Of a stretch of 64,000 nucleotides of DNA, positions 1-52,687 are shown in pieces. Both the position numbers and the translations under genes were made by a program. How positions within the stretch are numbered: the first letter of the stretch is position 1; every line of letters begins with the position of its first letter. The notes below the pieces were generated by a model, which saw only the letters and a program-made list of their open reading frames with translations, searched no databases and was not told the origin of the DNA. The stretch is from positions 1-64,000 of the forward strand of contig LOEZ01000017.1 in NCBI GenBank assembly GCA_001516055.1. The letters run 5' to 3'. Source of the DNA: Gracilibacter sp. BRH_c7a. GTDB taxonomy: Bacteria; Bacillota; Desulfitobacteriia; Desulfitobacteriales; Syntrophobotulaceae.

Positions 1-65
1 TACGGGATTCGAACCCGTGTTACCGCCGTGAAAGGGCGGTGTCTTAACCGCTTGACCAATGGGCC
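1..65 (-). tRNA. tRNA-Glu (TTC), 3' end cut by window edge
   Basis: Read on the minus strand from 65, the sequence gives a D arm (TTGGTCAAGCGGTTAAGAC), an anticodon stem CCGCC/GGCGG around a loop with anticodon TTC, and a T arm containing GGTTCGAATCC. TTC reads glutamate codons. The gene runs off the window before its last bases, so the acceptor 3' strand is not visible. A consensus promoter lies just upstream. Confidence 0.95.
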
Positions 66-50254: not shown

Positions 50255-51841
50255 CTATTCAGTATCAAAATTAATTTTCTTAACCCCTTGAATACCGATT
50301 AATTCCTTTAGTTTATTTAGTACTGAACACTTAATTTCCCCTTCAACTCCAACAATCATGATATTCGTCCCAATAGCTGTGGTTTTCCCTACCTGCATAC
50401 TCGTGATATTAATATTATTCTCTCCCAAAATGGTCCCAACCTTACCCACCATACCTGGATAATCTTCGTGAGGAATGAGGAGAAGCCAACCGATAGGATC
50501 CACATCAACTCGAAAATTATCTATTTCAACTATCCTGCCTTCTTTTTTTCCAAAAAGAGTGCCGGCAACCCTATGCTCACTCTTATCTGTTCTGACCGTA
50601 ACACTAAGAAGATCCACAAAATCCTCTGTATCCTGGCTTTTAATTTCTTTTACAATAATCCCTCTTGCCTTCGCAACTTCCGGAGCATTTACATAGTTCA
50701 CAGCTTCTTGAAGAATCGGGTTTAGTACTCCTTTGACAACAGCAAGTGTTAGCATCTTCGTATCAATCTTACTTATATAACCGTTATACTTTACCTCAAC
50801 ACTTTTTATCCTTCCCTCAGTAAGGTGTACTGCCAAAACACCCATTTTTTCAACGAGGTTAATATAAGGTTTAATCGTATCCATAACATCCTTGGCTACA
50901 GGAGGAATATTGAGAGAAGTCGCTACCGGCTCAGATCTTAACGCAGCCAAAACCCCTCTTGCTACCCCAAGGGCAACTTCATTTTCAGCTTCTTGAGTGC
51001 GTGAAGCAATTCTTGGAGTACATATAACATTTGGCATTTTCAGTAAGGGGCTATTTGAATCGACTGGCTCCTGGGCAAAAGCATCTAGAGCTGCCCCTGC
51101 AACTATTCCTTCTTGGAGTGCCTTGATAAGAGCAGCTTCTTCAATAATACCCCCTCGAGCACAATTAATTAAATTTACTCCCCTTTTCATTTTCTTGAAA
51201 GCATCTTCATTCAATAAGTTTCTGGTATCAACAGTAGTAGGTAGGTGCAAAGTAATATAATCCGCATTTTTGAGCAGGAATTCGTAATCCACAAGATCTA
51301 TACCAATCTCTTTTGCTTTATCTTCACTTATAAAAGGATCATAAGCTAGCACTTTCATATCAAATGATTTCGCTCTTCTAGCTACACCTGCACCAACTCG
51401 TCCTAAGCCTATAATACCTAAGACTTTTTCTCTAATCTCTGTACCTGTATATTTATGTCTTTCCCATTCACCATTTTGGACCGAACAATAGGCCTGGGGA
51501 AGATTTCTACTAAGAGCTAAAATCATACCTAAAGTATATTCAATGGAAGAAGTGCTGTTGCCTTGAGGTGCGTTTAAAACTATTATCCCTCTTTTGGTTG
51601 CAGTTTGGATATCGATATGTTCAACCTCAAGACCTGCTCTACCTATTACTGTGAGTTTTTTACCAGCTTCAATAACGTCTGAACCTACCCTGGTATCTCC
51701 TCGTACAACTAAAGCATCATATTCAGGAATAATTTTAATCAACTCTTCCTGAGAAAGCTCACCATATGTATCAACATTATGTTCTTCTTCCAGCAACCTA
51801 ACACCAGCGCGAGCAACTTTTTCACTCACTAAAATTCTCAT
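50255..51841 (-). CDS. serA: D-3-phosphoglycerate dehydrogenase (long form with ACT domain)
   Basis: The first step of serine synthesis. The 528-aa protein has the NAD-binding GIIGLGRVGAGVARRA (about 143-158), the catalytic arginine in NCARGGII (about 227), E in AQEPVD and the C-terminal ASB and ACT domains (about 330-528). The histidine of the usual HLG motif is not obvious in the PRIASRT segment near 285. It has its own consensus promoter and an attenuator-like leader, described separately. ATG behind AGGGGG. Confidence 0.96.
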   Translation of the reverse strand: MRILVSEKVARAGVRLLEEEHNVDTYGELSQEELIKIIPEYDALVVRGDTRVGSDVIEAGKKLTVIGRAGLEVEHIDIQTATKRGIIVLNAPQGNSTSSIEYTLGMILALSRNLPQAYCSVQNGEWERHKYTGTEIREKVLGIIGLGRVGAGVARRAKSFDMKVLAYDPFISEDKAKEIGIDLVDYEFLLKNADYITLHLPTTVDTRNLLNEDAFKKMKRGVNLINCARGGIIEEAALIKALQEGIVAGAALDAFAQEPVDSNSPLLKMPNVICTPRIASRTQEAENEVALGVARGVLAALRSEPVATSLNIPPVAKDVMDTIKPYINLVEKMGVLAVHLTEGRIKSVEVKYNGYISKIDTKMLTLAVVKGVLNPILQEAVNYVNAPEVAKARGIIVKEIKSQDTEDFVDLLSVTVRTDKSEHRVAGTLFGKKEGRIVEIDNFRVDVDPIGWLLLIPHEDYPGMVGKVGTILGENNINITSMQVGKTTAIGTNIMIVGVEGEIKCSVLNKLKELIGIQGVKKINFDTE

Positions 51842-51881
51842 TATTTTTACCCCCTAAAACTTCATCCCAATACATAATACC

Positions 51882-51936
51882 AAAAAACCTCCACATCCCT
51901 AACAGGGACGAGAGGTTATCCCGTGTTGCCACTTCC
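51882..51936 (-). promoter_or_regulatory. T-box-like antiterminator/terminator in the serA leader
   Basis: On the minus strand GGAAGTGGCAACACGGG (51920-51936) resembles the conserved T-box sequence, including TGGC, which could pair with the GCCA end of tRNA-Ser. It is followed by a terminator hairpin (ACCTC..TCCCT gtt AGGGA..GGAGGT) and T6 (51882-51887). The promoter begins only about 60 bases upstream, so there is no room for Stem I. Form and function are inferred. Confidence 0.6.
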
Positions 51937-51966
51937 CCTTCATTGCGCTTACTTGATTTTTTCCCG

Positions 51967-51995
51967 ATTATAAATTTAATTTCTCTTTCTGTCAA
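51967..51995 (-). promoter_or_regulatory. Consensus sigma-A promoter of serA
   Basis: TTGACA (51990-51995), 17 bases and TATAAT (51967-51972): a perfect match. Transcription should begin near 51960. Confidence 0.88.
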
Positions 51996-52018
51996 GAAGT
52001 TCTGGAGGATAAGTGTCT

Positions 52019-52687
52019 CTATTCAATTACTCTTCTACTCGCATGGTAAGTCTTAGCCCAGTAAGGCATATCTAAAGGTTGGACTTCCACACAATTTTTC
52101 GTTGCAGAAATAAACTGGGAATCTCCTAGATAAATACCAACATGACTGGCAAGCGTCCCATTAGTATTGAAGAATACCAGATCACCAGGCTCCAGCTTCG
52201 ACTTAGGGATTCCTACACCTTGTCTAAACTGTTCATATGATCCCCTTTCTAGTTGAATACCGTTTTCTCTAAAAACTAACTGAACTAACGCGGAGCAATC
52301 CACTCCCGCCCTAGTAGTCCCTCCATAGTTATAAGCCACCCCTTGCCATAAGAGAGCAGAAGCGACTATTTTTTCCCTAGTCTGGATTAACACCTTTTGG
52401 CTTTCAATTAATTGTATATTACTTACATTATTAATCCCAAATATATCTGCACCATCATTATGCTCCATGGTTTTTAAATTGAGTGGTTGCGGATCTAACA
52501 CTTGCTCCATTTGCTTTACGCTAATTGGATTTAAATTAAGTGTTGCCAGATCAGAAACATTCTGAACAGCAAGCATATTCATAGGAGTTACTGCAGTACT
52601 TGCTAAAAGCACCGCTGTCAGTCCTAATATTTGTCTAGGTATAACTACTTTTTGTTTTGGTTCTTCGAAGATAAGTGCAGCCTCCAT
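52019..52687 (-). CDS. NlpC/P60 cell-wall peptidase
   Basis: A secreted or membrane-anchored peptidoglycan hydrolase of 222 aa. A hydrophobic segment at about 17-37 serves as signal or anchor. The C-terminal NlpC/P60 domain has the catalytic cysteine in GVDCSALVQLVF (about 130), the histidine in LASHVGIYLG (about 181) and the polar residue in the segment after FISATKN. The middle part has no recognised domain. ATG behind GGAAGGAG. The target is probably the gamma-D-glutamyl-diaminopimelate bond, as in the family. Confidence 0.9.
   Translation of the reverse strand: MEAALIFEEPKQKVVIPRQILGLTAVLLASTAVTPMNMLAVQNVSDLATLNLNPISVKQMEQVLDPQPLNLKTMEHNDGADIFGINNVSNIQLIESQKVLIQTREKIVASALLWQGVAYNYGGTTRAGVDCSALVQLVFRENGIQLERGSYEQFRQGVGIPKSKLEPGDLVFFNTNGTLASHVGIYLGDSQFISATKNCVEVQPLDMPYWAKTYHASRRVIE

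Follow-up and report, generated by a model that had tools for sequence, protein, structure and literature searches.

A serA leader of T-box descent in Gracilibacter sp. BRH_c7a, probably reduced to a tRNA-blind attenuator

The serA gene of Gracilibacter sp. BRH_c7a is preceded by a short leader that resembles the 3′ part of a serine T-box, which raises the question of whether such a leader can still respond to tRNA and, if it does not, what role it might have kept. The locus lies in the window, by which we mean the whole 64,000-nucleotide stretch of DNA analyzed here (contig LOEZ01000017.1, positions 1 to 64,000 of the forward strand).

The serA locus and its promoter

The serA open reading frame (50255–51841, minus strand) encodes a D-3-phosphoglycerate dehydrogenase of 528 amino acids, with orthologues across the order at 56–91% identity, and is preceded by the Shine-Dalgarno sequence AGGGGG (51850–51855, minus strand). 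Its promoter (51967–51995, minus strand) consists of TTGACA at 51995–51990 and TATAAT at 51972–51967 separated by a 17-nucleotide spacer, and is as perfect as the preliminary description had claimed, matching the consensus at 12 of 12 positions. It is the same at 28 of 29 positions in the sister species, the MAG Gracilibacter sp. LH_M27 (G001), and genera g2, g3, g8 and g10 have the same serA promoter. From the promoter position, transcription is predicted to start near 51960, giving a leader of about 120 nucleotides.

An NlpC-type gene lies immediately upstream (52019–52687, minus strand) and its reading frame ends at 52019, so there is no space upstream for a Stem I. The earlier statement that none fits holds on two counts, since the gap between the NlpC stop codon and the promoter is too small and about 150 nucleotides are missing in the alignment described below. 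An upstream start with a full Stem I inside the NlpC gene, the arrangement that the preliminary description had set against its own reading, was not found. A full Stem I farther upstream was likewise ruled out, as the DNA there codes for NlpC and the promoter and gene order are conserved: in G001 serA has an intact NlpC orthologue upstream, and in further genera of the family NlpC-like coding sequence is likewise found 5′ of serA.

Two further observations concern the window itself. An imperfect inverted repeat, TTCTTGACAGAA, covers the −35 box (51987–51998, minus strand) and is conserved in the serA promoters of g1, g2, most of g3, and g8; together with the conserved promoter spacer and the upstream CCTCCAGAACTTC, it could form a candidate protein site. 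At the other end of the window, a tRNA gene (1–65, minus strand) is truncated by the window start.

Descent from a serine T-box by internal deletion

We compared the leader with a covariance model, R1, built on the 3′ domains of 21 complete T-boxes only, the window being left out. R1 matched the window with 49.9 bits (E 6.5e-15 over 87.6 kb; E 3e-13 across the whole genome), which argues that the T-box origin of the leader is not a chance resemblance and confirms the initial reading of a T-box-like stretch with TGGC and a terminator. The match includes the T-box sequence TGGCAACACGG with its UGGN element (51921–51931, minus strand; TAGCAACGCGG in G001), and the adjoining GCGCAATGAAGGGGAAG (51932–51948, minus strand), a remnant of the Stem I 5′ strand, lines up with GCACTTTGATGGGGAAGT and CGCAATGATGGGAAAGT in full T-boxes. 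The full T-box model RF00230 gave no match in the window up to E 10, and it identified 13 T-boxes elsewhere in the BRH_c7a genome. Measured against RF00230, the 3′ domain with its terminator is present, and the specifier-bearing Stem I, Stem II and Stem III are absent; for Stem III this is seen from the alignment, in which the Stem I edge directly adjoins the T-box. Eleven R1 matches were listed in the genome, nine in full T-boxes, one as a second tandem copy, and the one in the window, which among those listed is the only one to stand alone. The minimum free energy of the whole leader was not unusual compared with shuffled sequences (z −1.2).

Full serA T-boxes, recognized by RF00230, occur on the same promoter in two genomes of genus g2 of the same family, G012 and G002 (the latter taken as Candidatus Dichloromethanomonas elyunquensis), and the same model also finds full serA T-boxes in G033 and G071, which represent two genera of the neighbouring family f2. 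All four carry AUUCCG or AUUCCA at the expected specifier place, which reads as UCC, and the BRH_c7a genome has a tRNA-Ser(GGA). When aligned with G001 and three full T-boxes, the window leader is without about 150 nucleotides between the Stem I 5′ edge and the T-box, with the deletion junction near 51932/51931. The alignment thereby bears out the earlier proposal that the leader's first bases represent the 5′ edge of Stem I, fused to the antiterminator, with the middle deleted. An assembly artefact was ruled out because the identical deletion is carried by the MAG of the sister species. At the level of sequence, the comparison thus shows a former transcriptional T-box for tRNA-Ser(UCC) that underwent one internal deletion of about 150 nucleotides, predating the divergence of the two species known in the genus, and that lost Stems II and III together with all of Stem I past its 5′ edge.

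Other serine-gene leaders of the order were noted in the same survey. T-boxes of the Ser type (UGGC) that carry a second, tandem antiterminator/terminator lie upstream of serC across the order (L019, L020, L030 and others), and a Ser-type T-box of this tandem form precedes serA in G033 (L075:561-704). In family f3 (G028, G030), the regions upstream of serA (L080:399-612 and L083:292-504) match the glycine-GGAnGA riboswitch with 67–69 bits, under the gathering score of 110. A serC of the usual type was not found in G000 (BRH_c7a itself), G001, G010, G002, G012 and G008, although serA is present, and another aminotransferase may replace it in these six genomes.

Constraint, tRNA contact and the terminator hairpin

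Between the window and G001, the region from the promoter to the U-tract is identical at 107 of 112 ungapped positions (95.5%), with each of its sub-parts at 93% or above, compared with 52% identity at the fourfold sites of serA and NlpC, an estimate of constraint that is one pairwise comparison between two species of the genus, one of them a MAG. The 27-nucleotide spacer immediately 3′ of the terminator is 59% identical, and eight complete T-box leaders in the same two genomes are 77–89% identical, indicating that the truncated leader is constrained at least as much as complete T-boxes are. Since identity is so much higher than at fourfold sites, the leader is not junk, and the comparison shows that the promoter, the short 5′ leader and the intrinsic terminator before serA are under constraint and are apparently kept by selection. 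The same contrast tells against a dead remnant, that is, a decayed T-box without a present role that happens to have been caught before its loss. Decay of the tRNA-contacting bases and the failure of RF00230 to match would be expected of such a remnant, but neither the excess of identity over fourfold sites nor the compensatory changes that keep the hairpin in other genera would be, and we regard this explanation as very improbable.

The decay just mentioned is seen in the antiterminator. Three tRNA-Ser genes were found in the genome, all ending in GCCA, and the UGGC of the window matches them, as the preliminary description had supposed; the pairing is, however, not conserved in G001, which has UAGC at this place. 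The two species also differ by a GCG/ACG change and by a 6-nucleotide indel in the A1 arm, and all three differences are located in the antiterminator. When folded without the terminator 3′ arm, the leaders of G012 and G002 form a canonical antiterminator in which an A1 helix (AGGG/CCCU) lies by a 7-nucleotide UGGCAAC bulge. The leaders of the window and G001 form neither this helix nor any canonical antiterminator under the same conditions, and the Stem I remnant AAGGGG pairs with CCCU instead. The antiterminator of the first reading therefore stands as to its T-box strand and falls as to its A1 helix, which is no longer canonical. The loss of pairing in relatives that had been set as a counter-test is likewise found for the tRNA-contacting bases, the one further species of the genus compared being G001.

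With UAG in G001 and broken A1 arms, pairing with the tRNA 3′ end is shown by this comparison to be no longer maintained. Together with the absence of Stem III, this indicates that the leader probably does not read tRNA, and the idea of a T-box still responsive to tRNA-Ser was not sustained. We nevertheless weighed a minimal working T-box, in which uncharged tRNA-Ser, or any tRNA ending in GCCA, would stabilize the antiterminator through UGGC with no codon reading. The fit of UGGC to all three tRNA-Ser genes, an intact A2 (ACG/CGU) and the strong conservation of the leader are in keeping with it. However, besides the changes noted above, UGGC lies in a small hairpin, and not in a 7-nucleotide bulge, in the predicted pre-terminator fold, and without Stem III the antiterminator alone shows no appreciable tRNA binding (review, PMC7583486). 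A working minimal T-box thus appears very improbable.

The terminator hairpin, AACCTCTCGTCCCT-GTT-AGGGATGTGGAGGTT (51886–51917, minus strand), has a predicted ΔG of −18.3 kcal/mol and is followed by the U-run TTTTTT (51882–51887, minus strand). A simple terminator scan of the window did not call it, probably owing to a bulge in the hairpin. In genera g10, g3, g6, g7 and g4, which share the NlpC-serA order, the hairpin alone is kept (ACCTCTCGTC...GAGGGGTTT and variants), and g9 and g8, with the same gene order, have other partial remnants. In a set of 12 leaders without the sensor, standard pairs fill 137 of the 139 pair cells and seven two-sided changes were found, the pairs being counted by hand from folds because the MAFFT alignment had misplaced the 3′ arms; whole-arm shuffles matched this pairing in 1 of 5000 cases. 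For g7 and G004 we saw no promoter 5′ of the hairpin, which may for that reason be the terminator of the NlpC gene there. On the serA tree, which has a weak backbone, a single clade of 14 sensor-less rows was not rejected (p 0.14), whereas a single sensor-less clade including G008 was (p 0.0015), and the sensor was therefore lost at least twice on this tree. These data indicate that the hairpin outlasts the sensor in the family.

We also considered attenuation by a leader peptide, encoded by a small ORF whose start codon lies within the Stem I edge (ATGAAGGGGAAG...). In the window this ORF has 14 codons and overlaps the terminator 5′ arm; in G001, however, it ends after six codons at UAG, it has neither a Shine-Dalgarno sequence nor a run of serine codons, and its ATG is inherited from Stem I. 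We dismissed this highly improbable explanation, as the ORF is not conserved.

A proposed attenuator and its relation to known systems

A conserved hairpin lies between promoter and gene, as a constitutive attenuator would require, and we consider it likely, on balance, that a former tRNA-Ser(UCC) T-box has been reduced to a tRNA-blind attenuator of serA that is selectively kept. In this model, serA would be transcribed from a strong promoter through the attenuator, some polymerases would terminate near 51882, and serA output would be set by read-through. Judging from folding, AAGGGG in the Stem I remnant, by pairing with CCCU of the terminator 5′ arm, may slow folding of the terminator and may thereby fix the fraction that reads through.

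A fixed attenuator alone leaves the conserved 17-nucleotide spacer and the Stem I edge unexplained, and a bound factor may be involved. Such conservation would suit a leader that still switches in response to a different signal, whether a protein, an RNA or the conditions of transcription, with the Stem I remnant turned into a binding site or a new antiterminator strand: 32 of 34 positions of the Stem I edge and 16 of 17 of the promoter spacer are identical, against 52% at fourfold sites, and AAGGGG/CCCU pairing is predicted in both the window and G001. These pairing strands are, however, identical in both species and so without covariation, the switch has no known ligand or partner, and the leaders of other genera that have the hairpin alone are unrelated in sequence. 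We therefore hold this explanation to be rather unlikely, and the more specific proposal, that the Stem I edge AAGGGG is a substitute antiterminator strand and the T-box platform has been rewired to a different signal, to be a shade less likely again.

If the tRNA-blind attenuator is the correct reading, a sensor was lost while a brake was retained under selection, and an expression platform can outlast its aptamer; a T-box 3′ domain detected in sequence would then need not imply tRNA control. The loss of riboswitches is poorly documented, as far as our literature search showed, and here a series from full T-box through sensor-less T-box to bare terminator is found in one family at one gene. 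T-box phylogeny is reportedly described by Vitreschak 2008 and Gutierrez-Preciado 2009. For T-boxes that are degenerate or without Stem I, our search of the literature returned only a passing mention of a box called 'degenerated', which belongs to a different gene family (PMC2494555), and a precedent may exist.

Truncated-Stem I translational T-boxes retain the specifier and Stem II, whereas the window leader is without any tRNA-reading part. Those of Actinobacteria (PMC7583486) share with it a shortened Stem I. The tandem T-boxes of serC and of serA in G033 likewise have a 3′ domain without its own adjacent Stem I, but there a complete T-box precedes in the same leader and here none does. A plain promoter-proximal intrinsic terminator, acting as a constitutive attenuator, has the same order of promoter, short leader, U-run hairpin and gene, and differs in that the window leader is demonstrably of T-box descent. 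T-boxes of serA as such are already known, and with the class I transcriptional Ser T-box on serA of Paenibacillus polymyxa (PMC8002221) the window leader shares the gene, the position of the promoter, the T-box sequence, the terminator and the Stem I edge; it differs in having no specifier, no Stem I, II or III and no canonical A1, and in that its UGGN is unconserved. Its closest relation is to the full T-box of G002 and G012, to which it is homologous.
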